Position numbers and translations under genes: made by a program. Shown piece by piece: positions 1,526 to 13,660 of a stretch of DNA of 64,000 nucleotides. Below the pieces are notes generated by a model, which worked only from the letters and a program-made list of their open reading frames with translations, was not told the DNA's origin and did not search any database. Position 1 is the first letter of the stretch; every line of letters starts with the position of its first letter. The stretch comes from Monosiga brevicollis MX1 (lineage: Eukaryota; Opisthokonta; Choanoflagellata; Craspedida; Salpingoecidae). The stretch covers positions 652,863 to 716,862 of the forward strand of contig NW_001865050.1 in NCBI RefSeq assembly GCF_000002865.3. Reading direction: 5' to 3'.

Positions 1526-1716
1526 AAGATTGGTTCTGTGGCTTGAACACCAGGAGGCACGGCATTTCAGATCCGAAGCGACATGTAGTCGCGCTTGTTT
1601 GCCAGAGGAAGAATTGAAAATAAAAGGCGCTTTAAAGGGCACAAATATTTGGTGCGTTGGTTGAGTTGAGGGGAAAAAATCAAGGCGATGGCAAGGACGG
1701 TGAGTGGTGGAAAGAA

Positions 1717-2622
1717 TCAGTTGTCCGTTTCAACCTCTTCTTGAATCTCAGTGAGAACCATGTCCTCCTGCTCGTCAGTATCAAAGTAACGGCCAGCTGA
1801 GCGTGGGCGACGCGGAGTTGAGGGGTAGGCGGAGCCCGTGAGCAGTCGATCATCGTCCTCGCCCCAAGTATGACTGTGTTCCAGATAGGAAGCCAGGACG
1901 GTGGACATGATCAGGCCAACACCGATGAAAAATCCAGCAGTGGCCAGGCCAAGACCTATTAACATGTAAGGAATTAAAAAAAAAGCAAGGGAGAAGATCA
2001 GATATTTGCGCACGCAGCTGGGCCTTGCAGTGAGAAGATGCAGTCTTGGCAAGAAAGCCAACCAGCGACGGAAGACAACGCACCGACAACAGCACCCGAG
2101 CGGCGCACAGAGGCGGCAAGGTCATCAAACCCATCGGAGATGCTTCCTGAGACCATGGTCACAAAGGCCGACTTGAAGCCCTCCAGCGTGTCCATGTTGG
2201 CTTTGCCTTGAGCAATGACCTTCTGTCAGGGCAGAGAAGCAAGTCAAGTTCAGCGCATGACGTGGGCACACTGCCGTTCAAAGTGCCGTCAAACGGAAGG
2301 CTCCAAGACGCACCTCTGTCAGAAACTCGCGCACAGACTTGGCAGCCACTGCATCCGCAGTTGGCATCATCGCGCCTGGATTTATTGGCGCAGTGCTAGT
2401 GGGCAAACACCAGCCCGACAATGCTCACAGCCCTTGAGCAATAACTTGGCGACACACCACTGGCCAACAATGAACCATGAACGTCAAACCCACAAGAATC
2501 AAGGCACCAGCCTGTTCCTGCTGGACAAGGTGAAGCCACCCACCCACACACACACACACGCACTCCAAGAAGGCGAACAGCCACGGCGCTGCCCCCGCCA
2601 AGTTCAGGGCCCACCAGCTCAG
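1717..2622 (-). CDS. Unrecognised small membrane protein, multi-exon
   Basis: Reverse-strand exons can be chained: about 2564-2622, a piece ending at 2520, 2314-2395, 2084-2222 and 1717-1955 (stop at 1717). The 2084-2222 and 1717-1955 exons join cleanly and create a hydrophobic segment (AVVGLGLATAGFFIGVGLIM) followed by a charged acidic tail ending EEVETDN. An upstream exon holds a second hydrophobic stretch (GALILVGLTF). This suggests two or more membrane passes with a cytosolic acidic tail. I do not recognise the family. The first exon and start codon were not found; the sequence beyond 2640 is microsatellite. The intron between the GALILVGLTF exon and 2314-2395 is poorly determined. Confidence 0.45.
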
Positions 2623-2699
2623 CTCACGAGGCAACGTTAAGGAAGATGAAAGAAAAATGAAATAAAAGACGCGCGTTGCAAACAAATTGCTGACACACA

Positions 2700-2895
2700 T
2701 AGAGAGAGAGATGTGTGTGTGTGAGCGTGGGTCTGATGTGTGTGTGTGTGCAACTGTCATGCTGCTGGTGCTATGGTGCTATCCAAGGTGCTATGGTGCT
2801 ATGGTGCTATGGTGCTATGGTGCTATGGTGCTATGGTACTATGGTGCTATGGCGCTATGGCGCGCATGTGTGTGTGTGTGTGTGTATTCGAATGC
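2700..2895. repeat. GT microsatellites flanking an 8-bp GGTGCTAT minisatellite
   Basis: Two GT-rich tracts (about 2713-2752 and 2868-2886) flank roughly a dozen tandem copies of the octamer GGTGCTAT (about 2766-2862), with single-base variants in the last copies. An octamer is out of register with codons, so coding use is unlikely. It lies between two reverse-strand genes. Confidence 0.9.
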
Positions 2896-3069
2896 TTGTG
2901 CAGTCAGTGACCCTTTGGGGGGCACGGCGCGACAGCATGAGATGGGCAAAGCAGAGAAGAGGCCAAAGCAAAAGGACATAAACACTTGTCGAGGACCTAA
3001 AATTTCAATTTCAAGTCACCGAGACGCAGGGCAGGAGTCTAGTCCCGTATCGGCACCTGGGATCTCGAG

Positions 3070-4322
3070 TTACTCCCAGGCACCGTCGTTGCGGGTGACT
3101 TCCCAGCCAGGCGGCAGATGTCGAGGCTGTAGTCGGTCGACAAAGAGCCGGCGCCAGCGCTCGCAGAACGCCTGCAGACTGGCGTCAGCATTGGGCTCGT
3201 GCACTACGGCATGGACAATTTGCTCGGCCGGTGAAACAGTCGTAGCCTGTGGTAGACGCAGGGTATGGGCAATGATGAGGTCGGACTGCGACTGGGGCTG
3301 CGCGACAACAGAAATGACAAGACAAAACGTACCTCGCGAGCCTCGTTTAGCACCCGTAATTGGGTCTGAGCATACTCAGCTGCTCGAGCTAAAAGGACAT
3401 CATCCCGGGTGATGCCTCGCAGCTCGTCTGGTATAGCCTCCTCCACTTTCTGCCACAGTTGAGCTACCTTGGCTTCAGGCATGGCAGCCGCATACCGTTG
3501 CAGGGCACTGACGTCTCGAAGCAGTTGACGCAGCTCTGGCGGCGGGTCGGCTCGCGCGGCAGCCACCCCATATTGTAACAGCAGCGTTTTGTCCAGCTGG
3601 GTAGCAGCACGATTGAACTGCTCATGACAGGGCTGGCATAGGAGCACGACATCATGGTTATTGTGAGACTTGAGGGCATGGGGAAAATGGCTCCGATACT
3701 GCCGTGGTACAACGTGAGTGCGAATCAGCCCGGTGCCGGCATCATCCAACCCGGCAGTCTCGTGCTCTTGCATCCAGGCTATTGCACGCGCTGCCTCATC
3801 CTTGTCGTGGTCGGCTTCGTGGTCGTTCTCGTCACTGTGATAACCGTGTGGGTCGCCTTCGCTGCTGCTGCTGCTGCTCCAGTCGTCGTCGCAAGAACTC
3901 GCATCAGCTTCAGCATCAGCTTCAGCCGTGCCAGGCACCAGCGGCAAAGCCGGTAGCGCAACCGATGGTCCCCCTGTGTGAACCTTGGTCCTCAAAGCTG
4001 CCTTAAGCGGCCCCGGAGCAGTCGCTTCGTTGGTCCGCTGGGTCGGGCCCCATCCACAGGCCACGCAGATGTTGCGCAAAGGATTCTCATAAAAGGTATC
4101 TCCGCGACGTCCCTGTCCCCGTGGAACAAAGGTGAGGCGAATTGTGTGCTGCTCCTCTGGACCCTCGCGGTGCGCGAGCCCTCGATCCAGATACCACCGC
4201 GCCTTTTTATCGGCCGCAAAGAACAAAAAGTCGCCCTCTGGATCCAGCACGCGCACATTGGCGTAAGGGAGGGTGGCCGCCGTTCGCCCCTTGCTTCTCC
4301 GCTGTGCCGATCCACTCGACAT
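3070..4322 (-). CDS. EXD2-type C-terminal HNH-like domain protein without the exonuclease domain
   Basis: Two exons (3333-4322 and 3070-3297) separated by a 35-nt intron give 405 residues. The protein aligns by eye with the part of animal EXD2 that follows the 3'-5' exonuclease domain: NVRVLDPEG start, KKARWYLDRGL, NICVACGWG (first Cys pair), RTHVVPRQYRSHFP, NNHDVVLLCQPCHEQFN (HNH-like second Cys pair with His), and a C-terminal LPPGWEV. A low-complexity Asp/Ser/His stretch (residues about 120-170) sits between the Cys pairs. No DEDDy exonuclease motifs are present in the open frame, so this looks like a stand-alone domain. The ATG at 4322 was chosen because homology starts about 20 residues later; the frame stays open upstream to an alternative ATG at 4517 with Arg/Val-rich sequence. 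Function is inferred; EXD2 itself acts in nucleic-acid metabolism. Confidence 0.8.
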
Positions 4323-4725
4323 ATTGGCCCGTCCTGCACGCCTCTCCACCCCTTGATCTCCCACCTCAACCCTCACAGCCCGTCCTCCTCGCACATCACC
4401 CCTACCCGCACACCCGCGCCGTTGTTCCACCGCCACCACCACCACCACCCGTCTCGCTGCCGCTACCTCACCACCAGGTCTTGCCCGCACCCATGTCCGC
4501 AGCCCCTGCTTCAGCATCCCAGCAACAAAAGTCTGATATGTATTACACTTTGATTCTCAAAAGCGTGACCTTTACCACACTATCGCTTGGGGCCTGGATC
4601 CGTCTTTTTTCTTCTTGTGGCACGAGATCTGAGCTCGCTCAGTGGGTGAAGGGGTTGAGGGGGTGACGGCACTCTTGGTCGACGGTGGCCGAGCTTTGAA
4701 GCGTATCCCTCTCGTCTCTCTGTGT

Positions 4726-4749
4726 GTGCGTGCGTACGTGCGTGCGTGC

Positions 4750-4800
<51 letters not shown>
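4726..4800. repeat. TGCG/TG microsatellite upstream of the TMEM86 gene
   Basis: A short run of TGCG-type tetramers grades into an almost perfect TG dinucleotide run (about 4756-4800), ending some 50 bp before the TMEM86-like start codon. Confidence 0.9.
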
Positions 4801-4802
<2 letters not shown>

Positions 4803-4853
4803 GTGCAGCAGCAGTGGATCAAGTGGTGGTGCTGTCCTGCCACCCCTGCCAGG

Positions 4854-5570
4854 ATGAAGCTTTCTGACTGGTCACCCACGGTGTGGGATGGTTTGACGCT
4901 GCTGTCTGCAGTGCCGTACACGATCATGGGCCCAGCCCTCACGGCGGGTGGTGGCGATGATCTTACCCTCGCCTGTCTCGTCAAGTGCCTCCCGATGATG
5001 GTCCTGCTCATCTGGGCCATGAGCGCTCGCTACTCTCGTCAATCGGGCGTCTTCTCCTTTGGCTTTGTCTCCAAGGCCTTGCTCATCGCGGCCATCTGGT
5101 TCTCTGGGGCCGGTGACTGGGCGCTCGTGTACGAGAGCCACTTTGTGGCTGGCGTGCAGTATTTCCGCCTCAGCCACCTTGCTTACATTGCGCTCTTCGC
5201 GCGGGACATGACCCCTTCTTCTTTCGGGGCCCTCATTGCCTTTACCGTGCTTGTGGGGGCGCTCACCACTCTGCTGCCCGTCCTCCCCGCCGATCTCATT
5301 TTCACCATCCCTTCCTACAGCCTCGCCATCGTCATCATGTTCTACACTGCTTTTTGCACCAACGTGGCAGATGCGCGCACTGTGACTTTTGGCGCTCTCT
5401 GCTTCATGCTCTCCGACTTTGTGCTCTCGCTGAACAAGTTCATCTTCCCCTTTGCAGCCGCCCATTACATTGTCCACTGTTCCTACTATCTCAGCCAGCT
5501 CTGCCTGACACGTGGCGTCATTCTGCGTGATCAGCTGCAGAATACCCCTGTGCCAGCCAAGCAAGACTAA
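4854..5570 (+). CDS. TMEM86: TMEM86/YhhN-family lysoplasmalogenase-like membrane protein
   Basis: This is a single-exon reading frame of 238 residues with about eight hydrophobic segments spread along its length. The order of segments and spacing match the YhhN/TMEM86 family, including a central Phe-Arg-Leu-Ser-His segment and a C-terminal Leu-Ser-Asp-Phe-Val-Leu-Ser/Asn-Lys-Phe stretch followed by an Ala-Ala-His-Tyr motif. In this family the equivalent conserved polar residues lie in or near the membrane-embedded active site. Animal TMEM86A/B hydrolyse the vinyl-ether bond of lysoplasmalogens in ER membranes; the same reaction here is inferred. The ATG at 4854 is the natural start: residues before it are translated dinucleotide repeat. 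The gene has no introns, unlike most of its neighbours. Confidence 0.85.
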   Translation: MKLSDWSPTVWDGLTLLSAVPYTIMGPALTAGGGDDLTLACLVKCLPMMVLLIWAMSARYSRQSGVFSFGFVSKALLIAAIWFSGAGDWALVYESHFVAGVQYFRLSHLAYIALFARDMTPSSFGALIAFTVLVGALTTLLPVLPADLIFTIPSYSLAIVIMFYTAFCTNVADARTVTFGALCFMLSDFVLSLNKFIFPFAAAHYIVHCSYYLSQLCLTRGVILRDQLQNTPVPAKQD

Positions 5571-5868: not shown

Positions 5869-8800
5869 TCAGGCCTCGGAAGAATCGAGGCGATTGAGGC
5901 TGCTAGCAAAAGGGTTAGTCGGGGACCAGGGCGTGGAGGCATCGAGACGCAAAGCAGTTGCGGTAGACGTGGACGAGCGCTCAGAGCTCGCAGCCGTGGC
6001 CAAACTCTCTCCAGAGTCGAGACTGTTGGGGCGTATCGAGGTGCCTTCTGAAGCAGGGTTTGAGCCAGAGCCGGATCCATTCACCCTGGCTAGGCGTGAG
6101 CGGCTCAAAGATACAGTGCGTTGCGGCGGCGTCGGACGCCATGTCGTCGGTGCTTCTGCTGGCTCCGTGGGGGGTGTACCGGAGGATGGTGTAGCCCGAT
6201 CGTCAGTGCGCTTGCTTGGTTGGGCTGCCGGCGAGGAACAGGAGCCGGCTGGTTGTGGTGCTGGCCAGCTGGCTTGGCTTGGCCGGCGCTGTCCAGGATC
6301 AGCAGCTGCAGGGTCACTCAAGTGTAAAGAGGTGTACGACGAGCTGCGCCGTAAGCCTGTGCGAGAAGAAGTGGCTGGTGGGGAAAGGTCGATATCATCA
6401 AGATCTCGCGTGACCAGCGGACCAGCAACGAGCACGCATGTCCCCTCCAGCTCTTCGAGCTGCGACTCGGATTGCGAGCGTGGTCGCCGAGTACTATTCG
6501 AGCTTTCTCGCAGACGAACTCGGCCACGCTGTGCCGTTGTTGCACTGATCGTGTCCATCGAGATCAGTTGTGAGTTGTCCGTCCTGTGCCGCTGGCCCTC
6601 ATTTGTAATCGCGTCGGTGTATCGATGCTGTGCCCCTCCCGAAGTTTCATTGCCAGTGCCCTCTTTCTCGTTGTTGCTGGGTTGGCCTTTGGACCACGAA
6701 GCCCGGCGGTGTACTGATTTTTGCGTGCTATTGGAGCGGCTAGAGTTCCGTGGTGTGGTCATGTGCAGGTAGCACTGTTTTCCATCCTTGGTTTGAGTGA
6801 AGGGCAACCGACTGAAATAATGCACCAAGGCCCATAGTGTTTTGAATGCAACGCGTGGTGCTTCCTCGAGTTGCAAATGACCTACACGGGACTCAACACA
6901 ATTGGCAGATGGCTCGAGTGAGGGCTCCGCGAGTTGCAGCCTAAAGGCCTGTCATCGAGGGCATCTACGTACGGTTGGCGTCGCATCGAATAAGGCCGTG
7001 AAAAAGGGGGGGGGGAGGGGGCAAGCCGAGTCAAAATAATAATCATATTTAGAGCACAGATTCGATAGAGAACACAAAATACGTGTGGCCAAGCAGTCAG
7101 TGCAGGATACGGACTGGCAATGTCGAATGAAAAAGTAGCCCACTGGAAGTTTTTGCAGCGCAGCCTCAGCGGAATCACGGGTCATGTGAAGCTGAAGCCA
7201 GGGCATGTGGTCGTGTCGCGAGCCGGGCTTGTCTTTGCTTGTACGGACATGCACAAATCCAAAGGGCGACGAGATGTGGGTCGGTGTAGTGGCAGTATCA
7301 AGCTTGCGAGAGAAGAAATGCCGCGACCAGCTGCGGCGGGTTCGAGATGGTGTGTCGGTAGCAACACTGGCAGCAAGCATGTCGCTCGAACTTTTGAAGG
7401 GCGCTGAAATGAGCATGTCATCCTCAGTGTGAGACCGCCGGTTGAGCCAGGACCAACGAAAACCACCCCGCAGCTCGGTGGGTGAAGTCTCGACCATTGA
7501 TGTGCGCGAGCTCGCCGACGCATTGGCGTCATCAGTTTCTGTTTCATTGAGGCAGGCACCATGAGCAATCACGATAAGTCTTGCCGGGGCAAGTCATGAA
7601 TATGCCTCAGGAACTTGTTCACACCTTCTGGCACGATGGGGCGGGCTTTGTCGACTGGGGAGTCTTCGAAACCAAGGTGTTGCACATGTTGAAACTCCTA
7701 GAAAACAGGCTGGTTGGTGAGACACGATTGGCATTGACATGTAGCATGTAGGCCCCTAGTGCACATGCAGCAGCATACAAGCACTTACGCTGGGTCTTGA
7801 GATTTCGTCCTTGGATAGGCCAACGATGCGCTTGTTTCGCCGGCCCTGCTTTTGCCGTCGCCGAACGTTGCCTGCAAGCGTTTTGGTCAGCACAATATCG
7901 AGGGAGGCTAGCATCCAGTCAAGGATCGAGGGCCCAGCTTTAAAAACGCGCGCTCACCTGCAGCAGCGTCGTTATGTGACTCAGCACTAATGATGGCCAT
8001 TTCGCGCTCAAGCAGGGCACACTCGCGCTTGCTCAGGACGGCCTCACGTTTGTTGAGCGCCTGTTACGTGCAATGACCCCGATCGGGTGTCCAAACCTCA
8101 ATCAGGCAGACCCGACAACCCGTGCCCCAACACACATGGGGGGTGGTAACTCGAAGCAAAGGCACACGGGTGTGCAAGGTTGCAACGTTTACCTCCTGTT
8201 GGATGCGCTGTTCGGCTTGAAGGTGACGCAGGGCGTGGTGTTGCTGAGCAATTTCCTCCTCTGTGCGGTGTAGCTGTTTGAACTTCTCATGACACTCGTC
8301 GCGCCAGGCCTGCTGAAGATCAAAGAATGCATCGTGCTCGTTGCGAGCAAACTGGCTTGTGCGTAGTTCGTCCAGCTGATGAACCAAGGTCCGAAAACTT
8401 GGGCGCGCCCGGGGGTCCATTTCCCAACACGCGCGCATGAGATGTGCGACATCCGGCGGGCAGGAGTCCGCGATGGGGAGGGTGCAGCCATTGACACAGA
8501 CGGAGTACGCGACCGTAAAGCCATGGATCCCGGCGTATGGGCGCTAAGGCAGTTGTGAAGTTGGGTATTGTTCCAATCGTGAGGAGAGCAAGGGTATGGC
8601 GCTTGCACTCCGTGAATCGCCAAGTTGCCAAGGAAAATGTATGGGTGCTACTCACCTCCGAGTGCATCAGCTCCCAGAGGACAACGCCCCAAGACCAACA
8701 ATCAGATTCCTTGCCGAAGCGCGACGTTTTGATGACTTCGGGCGCCATATAGGCAAAAGTACCAGCTTGCGTCATCTCGACCGTCTCTGCAAAGGCACGG

Positions 8801-9894
8801 GCCGTGCCAAAGTCGCACAGTTTTACGACGTTGCGGCTCAGATCGGGCTGCCCGTTATCCAATACCTGGGTAGCCCCATTAAGTGCACATCTTCTGAGGT
8901 GAGAGGTGAACCGCTCTGCGTTTAGCCTGCTATCGCGATATTTCTAGTCTCCAAAAACCCACTCGTCGCACCTTCGAGAGGAGAATGTTTTCTGACTTTA
9001 GGTCTCGATGCACGATGCACTGTCGGCATTCATCATGCAGGTAGCGCATGCCCTGAGCAATTTGACTCGCCCAGTCGATGATAACTTCGGGTTCCAGCGT
9101 ATGGGTGCGCAGGACCGCCCCAAGTGATCCACCTGGGAGCCAGGGATGGAGGAAAAGAGTGAGCACTGCGAGCACAACAAGAGATCAAGTGGCAAGAGGT
9201 GGCGCAAAGATGCGCGTGGTCAATGCAAGTGACATGGGCTCTGACCAGCACAGTATTCCAAAACGAGGTAGTAATTCGGGGCTCTGGCGGGTGTGGAATC
9301 AGCATCAAGAGCAGTATTAAGGAACGGCTTTTGGTGGTAGTCAAGCAGCTGCTCACGCTTCGTACTGAGTGCAGGTAATGGGGTGCGTGCAGTGGGGAGG
9401 GCAGAGACGCTTTACCGGATGGCTTGCCCATACAGAGAGGCAATGTTGCGATGGCTGCAGCCGTAGAGGAGTTCGGCCTCTTGGCGAAAATCACGCATCT
9501 ACGCCAGAGGGGCGGGGGAGGGAGCAGGGGGTTGGCATGGATCATCGTTCTGAGCTGCCAACCATCAGACACAGGGGTGCGAGGGACAGAATCGTAGGAC
9601 GGTGGGTTAGAACCTTGGACTCAAAGTCGGCGACGCGGGGCACGGTGAGCTCCTTGATGGCAACGACAAGGTCCGTTTCGTTGAGCCTCAGATGACCCCG
9701 ATAGACACGACCAAAGCCACCAGCTGTAGCAGCGTACGGCGTGCAGCAAGCAAGCAACTTATCATGAGATACCGACTGAGCAACAGGGGCAGCGGACGGG
9801 GGGCATGAGAAGTAATGGACAAACCGCCGATGCAAGTGTCCAGGGTGATGTCCTCAAATCGCAGGGCCTGGGGCTGGGGAAGTGGAGCCGCCAT
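5869..9894 (-). CDS. Mixed-lineage-type (MLK/TKL) protein kinase with C-terminal SH2 domain
   Basis: Twelve exons (9825-9894, 9614-9723, 9416-9498, 9246-9364, 8972-9132, 8656-8865, 8193-8543, 7958-8060, 7789-7871, 7625-7697, 7111-7538, 5869-6948) sum to 956 codons plus stop with every phase agreeing. The N-terminal kinase domain has the glycine loop GAGGFGRVYRG, the VAIKEL lysine, HRDLKSENILL, DFGTARAF and YMAPEV, so it should be active. After RPSF comes a charged coiled-coil region and the block KREAVLSKRECALLEREMAI, then ISRPSEFQH, which match the leucine-zipper and following region of animal MLKs (MAP3K9-11). A Ser/Thr linker leads to an SH2 domain (exons 11-12): MTRDSAEAALQKLPVGYFFI, the key Arg in FFIRHCQS, AFRLQL and ALVHYFSRLP. 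The long tail is Ser/Pro/Arg-rich. No SH3 domain is seen before the kinase. Start at 9894 gives a short leader; an in-frame ATG exists at 10002. Confidence 0.87.
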
Positions 9895-9899
9895 GCTGT

Positions 9900-10677
9900 A
9901 GGCGTCGGAGGTGCTGCTAGCGAGATCGCCGCCGCCGTCCAATGCATAAAGCCACGCTCTTACCTTTCCTTCCTCTGCTTGCCCTCCTCCCCCTCTCCTC
10001 AATCGCTAGTGCTCTTGGGTGTACACCATTCCTCGCGCTGACACGTAAGCTCCTCTACTGCGATGCTCTGTCTTGGCTGATCACAAATCACGAAAGTTTG
10101 AATCGGAAGAGTGCGACGACCCTGATGCCCCAGCCAGCCACACCACACGCCTATCCCAACAGCAGCAGATGACACGGCAAGGACACCGGCATGCATGCGA
10201 CCACCAAGGCACAGGCTCCTCGAGGCTGAGCCAAAAGCAGCGAAGAGCCCAAAGCAAATAAGCTAAACTCTAAAACATTGAACATTATCTTAAAAACGCT
10301 TAACGTGGTATAGACTAATGTTCTGAAGAATATCTGCATTAACCGTTAATTTAACAACATTAACCCGAGATGCGACTGCCTCTGCCGCTGCCACGGTCTT
10401 GGTTTCTGTCTCTGCTTCTGCCTCTGCTTCTGTCACCGTCTCTCTGTCTCTCTCTGTCTCTCTGTCTCTCTCTCTCCCAACCAACTCTCTCTCTCTCTCT
10501 GTTTCTCTCTCTCTGTCTCTCTCTGTCTCTGCTCTCTCTGTCTCTATGTCTCTGTGTCTCATTCGAATGTCAGATATTTGTTGTTGATGTCGTTTTTGCG
10601 ATCGTGACGGCACGATCAAACGCGCGACGATGCCTGGGACTGCTGGGACTGCCGGGACTGGTCGGCTGCCACTGGCA
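9900..10677. other. Intergenic region between divergent kinase and glycosidase genes, CT-rich
   Basis: This is the presumed shared promoter region of the reverse-strand MLK-SH2 kinase and the forward-strand GH79 gene. It contains an AT-rich patch (about 10256-10365) and a long imperfect CT/CTGT tract (about 10370-10560). No supported gene lies in it; the reading frames over the CT tract are translated repeat. Confidence 0.7.
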
Positions 10678-13660
10678 ATGAGACTGATCGGGGTGTTGGT
10701 GGCGGTGGTGCTGCTTGGGGTTGTGTCTGGCACCAGTGTGGCTTCACAGACAACGGCCGCGGCCAATGATGCGCTGGATGGACAAGACATTGTCGTGGAT
10801 ATGAATGGGGATGTCTACACGCAGTCCATCCCGCCAAACTTTGCCTCGTTCTCCTTTGAGGTGTGTGAATGGGCGTATCGATGTGTGTGCGTGCGTGCGT
10901 GCGTGCATGCGTGCGTGCGTGCGTGTGTGATAGGAGGGGGCGCATCGGAGCCGGATGAGCCACGGGGCATGCGATTTTTCACGTCTTTCATCCCACCACC
11001 CCATGCCACCTTGACTCTGCTATCCAGCAACCAGGCAGTAGCTTTTTCAGCCTCATGTGCACGGCTCTGTTTTGCGTAGATTTCGGGCCTGATCACGATG
11101 ATCGGCCAGCTCCCTAATCCACCAAAACCCAGCTTTGTCCAGCTCTTGAAGAATTTGCAGCAGCAAAGTCAGAGCAACGGTCCCACCATTCGCGTTGGTG
11201 GCAATAGCGCAGAAGGTATGAACGCAAACGGCGAGATGGATCTGTCCGCCCTGGCAAGCTGACCCGATATTCACATTGGGAATTCTGGACACCTCTCTGC
11301 CCCTCTTCTTTGGCATACATTCAACAACCCAGAGTCATGGTGGAACCCAGACAACAAGCCCTTGCCTGCCAATGTGAGCTTCAACATCAATGCCACCCAA
11401 TTGCAATCCTACAAGAGCTTTGCTGAAGCCAGCGCCCAGACCAAGTATGCGCGAAATACCCATCTTCTTTCTTCGGCTGGCTGCAGCCACATCCAAAGTC
11501 TATGCCGCTTCATCGACTTGCGTTCATCTTGGTGCCCACCATAGATTCGTCCTGGGCACGTCCATGCTGCAGGCCAACTCCCCCGCATGGGCTGTGGCCC
11601 ATGTCCAAGCCATGGGCAAATACATCGGCTGGGATCTGATTGAAAGCGTCGAGATTGGCAATGAGAATGACCTCTTTGCAAGCAATTATTACCGGCCCCA
11701 GGTTGGTGGTTGGGCATCAGGGACAACCAACTCGCATTTGGCATCAATCACAACCAACTCGCAAATCGTAAAATCATCACGTCTCTCTGGTATCTTGCCG
11801 CAGAACTATAGCTATGAGGATTATCGCTCAGAGTTCAAGGTTTATGAGGAAGCATTGCAAGCACAGGGTGGATTGCCCTTGGGTAGGCACTGGATTTGGC
11901 TTTATGGCAGCCTGGGCCTGCGAGATCTTGGGATTTCTGATCATGCTGGGGCACTGGATAGGACGTGTCCAAGGCGGCACCTTTTGCTGTAAAAGCGATT
12001 TCAAGGACCACGTCGGTGCCTACATCGACGAGTTTCATGCCAACATGACGTCCTTCAGCTATCACCGGTACCCTGAATCTCACTGCCATGACAATGTGCG
12101 AATCTACCGGTCCATCATCCCGTGTCCCGGTTGAACCTCAACAAAAGAGGCGGGGACGCTCACTCATTTGGGACCCGTGCAATTAGGCACCGACCTTGGC
12201 GGGCCTCATGTCGGAAAACAGCTCGCAAGGACAAGCCGATATTCTGGCTCCGATGGTGCAGGTACGGCCATGCATATGAAGAATGCTGCGAGCAAGAGTC
12301 CTTGGATGTCAACTCTCCTCATCACAGACCTTGACCTCCCGCGTACGACCATGATGCTTGGTTTCCAATTAGGCGGCCTCACAATACCACCTCCCCGTGC
12401 GCGTGGGCGAGGGCAACAGTGTATCATGCGGCGGCTATCCCAACGTCTCCAATGTTATGGTCCGTGCTAGGCCCGTCTCTTGGCCGCACAAAGTGTCAGC
12501 CTTTTTTTTTTTTTTCTCCTAATCGACCCCACCTGCCTGTGCGGGACAACAGGCATCAGCACTATGGTCGCTGGACTTTATGGCCAGTTTTGCTGCCGTG
12601 AATGTCTCCATGGTCAACTTTCATGGCGGTGGCGAAGGTTTGAGTTTTGTACCTTGCAGACATCCTACAGCTCCCCAGCCCTGAGGCTAACTCTGCAATT
12701 GCCTTGAACTGACACTCAACATTTGGTGTTTGATGCTTGCCACCTTCTACCTTCTGCACTTGACCGCCAAAGGCGCCTACACAGCTATCGGGTATAAAAG
12801 TGCTTTTGACCAAGTGAGTTTTCTTACCGACCTGGTGGTTTTGCCTTGTCACAAACTGCCTGCGTGCCCCCACAGCTCTGCTTGTTCTCACGATTTCAAT
12901 CAGGTGCCGGATGTGCGCCCGTTATACTACGGCATGCTAGCCTTCACCGAGGCGACTCGTAACAACGCCAAGCTCATCAACGTCACCATCCAAAACAACG
13001 TGTCGGGTATCAAAATCTGGCCTTTCAAAGTGGGTGGAATGCCTGCTTCTGGCACCCGATACCAGTGCACGCCTGCTCCATTAGACCGGTGGCTTCTAGC
13101 ACGTAGCGCTGGATTGATTGCTATCTGCCGGCCTAGGATGATACTGGAGCAATGCGCGTTCTCGTCATTCACAAAAACTACAATCTGACCGCAAATGCCA
13201 GCATCGTCATCCTTCCCCCCACGGTGAGGCGTGCATTGCAGAGCTTGATGCTGCACCTGATGAACCGATGTAGGCCCAGATTTTGCACGAGCTATGAAGT
13301 GAGGCGGTTTTGTCCTCATTGCGGTGTGTGTGCCACTGGTCTGGGTTTGAGCAGGGCTCGCAAGTTACGACGGCACAGCTGAAACGGCTGATCAGCCCCA
13401 ACAATAACATCCTCGCAGAGTATGTTTGTCTTTGTTGTAAATGGCTCCAGCCCGCTTCCGCTCCCGCGACCTGCTGGACTTGACTTACTGCGTTTATGTC
13501 TGAATTGCCTAGGTACGGACTTAGCTGGGCTGGCCAAACTTTTGATGGGAGCAAGGATGGCTCGCCTCAGGGCACACGGGATGTTAAGACGGTGCACCTC
13601 GGCGAGGAAGGCTTTCACATCCACGTGCCACCCTGCAGTGCCGCGCTGATTGAGTTTTGA
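10678..13660 (+). CDS. Secreted GH79-family glycosidase (beta-glucuronidase/heparanase-like)
   Basis: This is a many-exon gene. Well-supported exons are 10678-10860, 11080-11215, 11333-11444, 11545-11701, 11804-11882 and 11962 to about 12091, then several smaller ones to the stop at 13658-13660. The N-terminus from the ATG at 10678 is a signal peptide (MRLIGVLVAVVLLGVVSG). GH79 landmarks occur in order: IRVGGNSAE, ESWWNP, FVLGTSML, SVEIGNENDLF (presumed acid/base Glu), SFSYHRYP, LPVRVGEGNS (presumed nucleophile Glu), ALWSLDFMASFAAVNVSMVN followed by FHGGG, VRPLYYGMLAF, MRVLVIHKNY and a C-terminal beta domain ending VPPCSAALIEF. GH79 enzymes remove glucuronic acid residues from glycans or proteoglycans outside the cell or in lysosomes. 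Exon limits between about 12090 and 12420 and between 13050 and 13450 are uncertain. An alternative in-frame ATG lies at 10630. Confidence 0.85.
10880..10925. repeat. TGCG microsatellite in intron 1 of the GH79 gene
   Basis: Tandem TGCG tetramers with a few TG units lie just after the donor at 10861, inside the first intron. Confidence 0.85.

Follow-up and report, generated by a model that had tools for sequence, protein, structure and literature searches.

A predicted MLK-type kinase with a C-terminal SH2 domain and no detected SH3 domain in the choanoflagellate Monosiga brevicollis

Background

To our knowledge, none of the animal kinases MLK1-4 (MAP3K9, 10, 11 and 21, together with Slipper of Drosophila) carries an SH2 domain. 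As described for MLK3, the SH3 domain docks on Pro469, between the leucine zipper and the Cdc42/Rac-binding (CRIB) motif, and GTP-bound Cdc42 or Rac at the CRIB motif frees this brake (PMC4880868). The same account places DLK and LZK (MAP3K12 and 13) and ZAK among the MLK-family MAP3Ks that have a zipper and no SH3, and describes the DLKs as being without a CRIB motif (PMC4880868). A kinase and an SH2 domain do occur in one chain elsewhere: the Src, Tec and Csk types are described as tyrosine kinases with the SH2 ahead of the kinase (PMC8662651), Monosiga brevicollis is reported to have tyrosine kinases whose domains are combined in ways not seen among animals (PMC3082566), and Shk1-5 of Dictyostelium are reported as TKL kinases with an SH2 domain, which in Shk1 is required for membrane localisation (PMC1420674). 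Here we describe a gene of M. brevicollis MX1 whose predicted product joins a kinase of the MLK1-4 type to a C-terminal SH2 domain. It lies at 5869..9894 on the minus strand of a stretch of 64,000 nucleotides, hereafter the window (contig NW_001865050.1, positions 652,863 to 716,862; C45:652863-716862 in our numbering), and all coordinates below are positions in the window unless a contig is named. A preliminary description, made from the letters and their reading frames, had proposed this fusion and had placed the kinase under phosphotyrosine control; its observation is confirmed here, and its interpretation is partly supported.

Results

Spliced in silico, the gene encodes a predicted protein of 956 residues with a kinase, a leucine zipper, a CRIB motif and an SH2 domain, in that order, with no SH3 domain found and no proline between zipper and CRIB. 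The kinase domain, delimited by Pfam and by the match to MLK1, covers residues 16-308 (8373..9849, minus strand, exons 1-7) and scores 192.9 bits against Pfam PK_Tyr_Ser-Thr. Among the best 60 of 2562 matches to PDB chains, MLK1 came first (E 3.7e-76) and MLK4 next (1.6e-70), followed by MLT/ZAK (1.9e-47), DLK (5.2e-46), a chain labelled EGFR (9p9u_A, 7.8e-46) and, further down, a reconstructed Src-Abl ancestor (1.4e-36), Fes (2.5e-32) and TAK1 (3.6e-32). Expressed as bits in this ranking by similarity (MLK1 259.8, MLK4 241.2, MLT/ZAK 165, DLK 160), the lead of MLK1 and MLK4 is 76-99 bits over MLT/ZAK and DLK and 126-145 bits over Fes and TAK1. Of the 308 residues aligned with MLK1 over the kinase and the post-kinase segment, 138 are identical, the similarity extending beyond the kinase through the segment that precedes the zipper, and the insert between HRDLKSEN and DFG is common to MLK1 and MLK4 and absent from MLT. 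The catalytic motifs GAGGFG, VAIK, RQEAEL, HRDLKSEN, DFG and APE are all present, and HRDLKSEN has the Ser/Thr kinase form. T209 and T213 align with T277 and S281, the activation-loop acceptors given for MLK3 (PMC4880868). The MLK likeness claimed in the preliminary description is borne out by the two top matches, and the kinase reads, on its sequence, as a relative or variant of the MLK1-4 branch; we do not file it as a full member of the MLK subfamily, because membership calls for an N-terminal SH3 domain and none was found.

That the protein belongs instead to the SHK family, of the Dictyostelium type, seems very improbable. The SH2 domain of the Shk kinases is likewise C-terminal, and we know of no zipper or CRIB motif in them. 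A TKL-type kinase with an SH2 domain would fit the SHK description (PMC1420674), but the MLK-specific kinase score, the insert, the post-kinase segment, the zipper and the CRIB motif all argue for an MLK, the SHKs being compared here by description only. According to that source, moreover, the sole MLK-family kinase of Dictyostelium belongs to the HH498 type, and no clear homologue of the MAP3K-type MLKs exists in this organism (PMC1420674). Within the M. brevicollis genome (57 contigs, 39.47 Mb, the scope of every genome search reported here), no second MLK-proper gene was seen (74 genome matches; 93 of 249 candidates scored), the matches on other contigs starting at E 2.2e-19 with 37% identity. 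A DLK/LZK-type MAP3K gene lies on the minus strand of contig C50 at about 195-199 kb (L015 / L093, C50:195000-201500); a piece of 152 residues from its C-lobe and post-kinase segment matches DLK at 2.5e-41 as against 8.1e-27 for MLK1, so that both the MLK and the DLK branches seem to be present in this genome. None of the 114 genome SH2 matches lies near the DLK-type gene.

The zipper (residues 342-391; 7992..8273, minus strand, exons 7-8) has L, I, L, Q, L, L, L and I at heptad positions 342, 349, 356, 363, 370, 377, 384 and 391, that is, Leu or Ile at seven of eight, in agreement with the leucine-zipper block noted before. The segment ISRPSEFQH, earlier cited as matching animal MLKs, is indeed there, and it belongs to a CRIB motif that the preliminary description did not name (residues 425-441, EISRPSEFQHVQHLGFE; 7665..7806, minus strand, exons 9-10). 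The Pfam PBD score of this motif is 15.1 bits, under the cut-off of 21.3, and all ten PDB matches at E<=10 to a segment of 70 residues around it are N-WASP, WASP or PAK chains, with a best E of only 0.064. Each of these matches is weak alone, and CRIB is the natural reading because the matches are unanimous and because of the position of the motif in the protein. The stretch from zipper to CRIB (residues 393-425) contains no proline. As the preliminary description had it, no SH3 domain was found: none of the 87 genome matches to SH3_1 lies on contig C45, and no SH3 family was detected in the ten minus-strand open reading frames (ORFs) of at least 40 residues in 9691-10978, although a short SH3 exon, or one beyond 10978, is possible. 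The kinase begins already at residue 16.

The SH2 domain (residues 568-660; 6760..7200, minus strand) was delimited by profiles and HH-align and is split between strands B and C by intron 11 (7110-6949). In a Pfam search of the whole protein SH2 is not listed, and a segment of 124 residues scores 16.8 bits against a cut-off of 21 (E 0.0074); a score below threshold was the outcome that the preliminary description had named as speaking against the domain, in the same Pfam check in which the kinase scored high. Even so, a comparison of the segment with the PDB gave 13 matches at E<=10 (best E 0.043), and 12 of these were to chains of SH2 proteins. Since the Pfam score was sub-threshold and yet the PDB matches were SH2 proteins, we built a genome-specific SH2 profile from 40 nearly full-length, stop-free domains picked from the 114 matches in the same genome. 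Against this profile the whole protein matches over positions 1-77, which are all of them, with 27.3 bits (E 1.6e-10, calculated for a single sequence), and the segment scores 32.7 bits; HH-align gives 97.5% with a score of 57.6.

That the SH2 likeness arose by chance in a Ser/Thr-rich tail is, on these figures, extremely improbable. The Pfam score does lie under its cut-off, and one of 5000 shuffles (4290 reported) reached 18.8 bits, but the next best reached 8.7, both well short of the segment, and the best of 200 shuffles scored 17.7 in HH-align. The reversed whole protein gives no match and the reversed segment -1.8. In a leave-one-out comparison the genuine SH2 domains score 29.9-85.8 bits and the query segment 30.1-34.2, at the bottom edge of that range, and among 593 ORFs of at least 60 residues in the window the best score, 22.1, belongs by position to exon 11's own ORF, which holds half of this SH2, with the next at 8.0. 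Together with the PDB matches, these controls disfavour chance. The donor of the domain is untraced, the nearest other SH2 in the genome being 39% identical over 46 residues (E 0.086).

Arginines of helix A and strand B normally contact the phosphotyrosine in SH2 domains, and both are kept here. Arg593 (7123..7125, minus strand), the strand-B arginine of the previously noted FFIRHCQS, aligns to a column with R in 38 of the 40 domains of the same genome, and R575 of helix A to one with R in 33 of 40; W568 is also kept. Two positions after the strand-B arginine, where 29 of the 40 have Ser, the protein has Cys, as does the N-terminal SH2 of ZAP-70 (FLLRQC). The strand-D histidine is not kept by HMMER or by HH-align, which puts Ser there, whereas MAFFT places a His in this column (H in 33 of 40), and phosphotyrosine binding may accordingly be weak or lost. 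With W568, R575 and R593 kept, Ser replaced by Cys and the strand-D residue dependent on the alignment, we take the domain to be a divergent SH2 for which phosphotyrosine binding is plausible. It could conversely have kept the SH2 fold but lost phosphotyrosine binding, and serve as a structural or protein-binding module, as the score at the bottom edge of the genome range, the Ser at strand D and the loss of the usual Ser after the arginine would suggest; we regard this as unlikely, if worth keeping in mind, given that both arginines are retained and that ZAP-70 shares the cysteine.

The continuity of the reading frame bears on whether there is one product or two. Twelve exons and 11 GT...AG introns join into 957 codons with a single, terminal stop, so that the frame claimed in the preliminary description holds throughout. 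Reading through the introns meets an in-frame stop in nine of the 11, while introns 1 and 6 are stop-free and shift the frame. When codon scores of all six frames are compared (with a training set of 17 long ORFs from this genome, in which two overlapping pairs, L002/L003 and L074/L086, are counted twice), the frame of the model is top in 11 of the 12 exons, exon 9 being a near tie (-0.04 against -0.03). The kinase-CRIB exons are parted from the linker-SH2 exons by intron 10 (7624-7539), the phases on its two sides fit, and its 86 nt leave little room for the end of one gene and the promoter of another. Retention of intron 10 would add 18 codons after residue 454 before a stop, giving an SH2-less form of 472 residues that ends after the CRIB motif. 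Taken together with an in-frame Met early in exon 11, this leads to the alternative that the locus makes two products, an intron-10-retaining kinase-zipper-CRIB protein and a separately started SH2 protein from exon 11, the fusion being an artefact of the gene model. The short distance between the compatible exons argues against this, as does the linker upstream of the SH2, where the joined frame has a codon score of 0.04 and the other forward frames -0.20 and -0.32, and we hold two products to be improbable.

On the minus strand the exons are 9894-9825, 9723-9614, 9498-9416, 9364-9246 (or 9283-9246), 9132-8972, 8865-8656, 8543-8193, 8060-7958, 7871-7789, 7697-7625, 7538-7111 and 6948-5869. 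The earlier exon set stands as to frame, and its exon 4 may hold 27 codons too many. These 81 nt (9284..9364, minus strand) are either the start of exon 4 or the end of intron 3, and the MLK1 alignment and the codon score disagree over them. With exon 4 starting at 9364 the MLK1 alignment splits in two around residues 88-114 (259.8 bits), whereas with the in-frame acceptor at 9283, 27 codons fewer, it runs unbroken at 280.0 bits; the disputed residues 88-114 have a coding-like codon score of 0.20. Intron 3 is 132 nt long with the start at 9283 and 51 nt with that at 9364. Removal of the 27 codons is likely a correction to the gene model. Intron 11 has an in-frame alternative, with a donor GTCC four bases earlier and its end at 6941, which gives 952 residues and an SH2 score of 24.1 bits as against 27.3. 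The SH2 domain survives either splice alternative, in exon 4 or in intron 11. An acceptor at 6940 was tried for intron 11 and rejected, because the frame is lost (612 residues), while the acceptor at 6948 restores it. After the SH2 domain the protein ends in a tail rich in Ser, Thr, Arg and Pro (residues 661-956 and the stop; 5869..6759, minus strand; S 19%, T 11%, R 11%, P 9%).

The gene has a convergent neighbour on the plus strand, a gene for a YhhN-family membrane protein at 4659-5570 (Pfam YhhN 104 bits). On its other side, divergent plus-strand reading frames at 10590-12100 open with a hydrophobic part and include a segment that by eye resembles heparanase-type glycosidases, which makes them a candidate only, their first 87 residues being without a Pfam match. 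An ORF on the minus strand at 3204-4556 contains a candidate HNH-like stretch, CQPCHEQFN, likewise seen by eye only.

Discussion

We consider it rather probable that this gene encodes a relative of MLK1-4 with an SH2 domain after the CRIB motif and without the N-terminal SH3, working as the proposed MAP3K. With the MLK domain list of PMC4880868, as far as it goes, the protein shares the kinase type, the insert before DFG, the post-kinase segment, the zipper, the CRIB motif and a Pro/Ser/Thr-rich tail, and it differs from the animal MLK1-4 in three respects: no SH3 was detected, the stretch from zipper to CRIB is free of proline, and the CRIB is followed by an SH2. It resembles DLK/LZK and ZAK in having a zipper and no SH3, but their scores lie 95-99 bits under that of MLK1. 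Like the Src, Tec and Csk types it has kinase and SH2 in one chain, here with the SH2 after the kinase, and with Shk1-5 it shares a TKL-group kinase plus an SH2.

Several results weigh against this interpretation. To the failure of SH2 to reach the Pfam cut-off, the strand-D residue and the stop within intron 10, all described above, must be added that an AlphaFold2 model of the SH2 (from the single sequence, in a reading that includes the 54 codons of intron 11 under translation table 4) has a predicted local distance difference test (pLDDT) value of 32; that exons 11 and 12 have low codon scores (0.03 and -0.05), even though the joined frame is the best there, as compared with 0.15 for the kinase part; and that the fusion is known here from the genomic sequence of one species alone. 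As for the pathway, an exon-by-exon search of the genome with a JNK segment gave 14 matches, and none of the 12 loops that could be read was TPY or TGY. By eye these 12 were ERK-like (TEY), CDK-, CDKL-, MAK-, GSK3- and DYRK/PRP4-like; of the other two, one was a piece without the loop and one was unread. A search with a MAP2K segment gave 16 matches, of which six were read and one was MEK-like by look. Being made exon by exon, neither search proves an absence.

By analogy with the animal MLKs, it can be hypothesized that the protein acts as a Ser/Thr MAP3K that dimerises via its zipper, that GTP-bound Cdc42 or Rac at the CRIB motif would open the kinase, and that autophosphorylation of the activation loop would follow. 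The SH2 domain would bring the kinase to tyrosine-phosphorylated proteins, or would bind a phosphotyrosine of its own or of its partner, and so serve in recruitment or switching, and the kinase would then phosphorylate a MAP2K in a cascade of the p38/JNK kind. The reported requirement of the Shk1 SH2 for localisation is a precedent for such a role. On this view, positioning or switching of the kinase, the task of the SH3 in animal MLKs, would have passed to the SH2. Phosphotyrosine signalling is abundant in this genome, as judged from the 114 SH2 matches, counted piecewise. Choanoflagellates are reported to have p38-like kinases in two paralogues (PMC9846432), and proteins named p38 and JNK are described from Salpingoeca rosetta (PMC11984502), so that a downstream cascade does exist in the group. 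A stricter scheme is possible, though we think it on the unlikely side, in which the kinase is a gate with two inputs and is switched on only when Cdc42/Rac-GTP occupies the CRIB motif and phosphotyrosine the SH2. The SH2 would then stand in for the SH3 with its docking proline as the module that inhibits the kinase from within or positions it. If true, such a gate would connect tyrosine kinases and a stress MAP kinase cascade in a single polypeptide, a connection for which animals use other proteins.

As far as the sequences compared here go, the fusion appears to be the only one that involves an MLK; among Ser/Thr-type kinases in general it is not alone. We found no description of an MLK-SH2 fusion among the titles and abstract openings listed in our literature search, and an earlier description may exist. 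SH2-bearing kinases outside the tyrosine-kinase group are not in themselves new, given Shk1-5 and a further candidate gene of this genome on contig C15 (C15:161500-167500, L094, minus strand, about 1621-4579), where C2, an AGC-type kinase, Pkinase_C and SH2 (Pfam 55.6 bits, a stronger score than that of the present SH2) follow one another in this order in exons that were left unjoined.

Conclusions

Genome editing is available in S. rosetta, and p38 and JNK knock-outs are reported there (PMC11984502); the pathway would be open to test if an orthologue of the present gene exists in that species. The SH2 domain may wire an MLK-type kinase to tyrosine-kinase signals. A relative of the MLKs that bears an SH2 and has no SH3 would show that the branch point between tyrosine-kinase and stress-kinase signalling was wired in another way in the sister lineage of animals, and also that evolution can discard an inhibitory module along with the site on which it docks.

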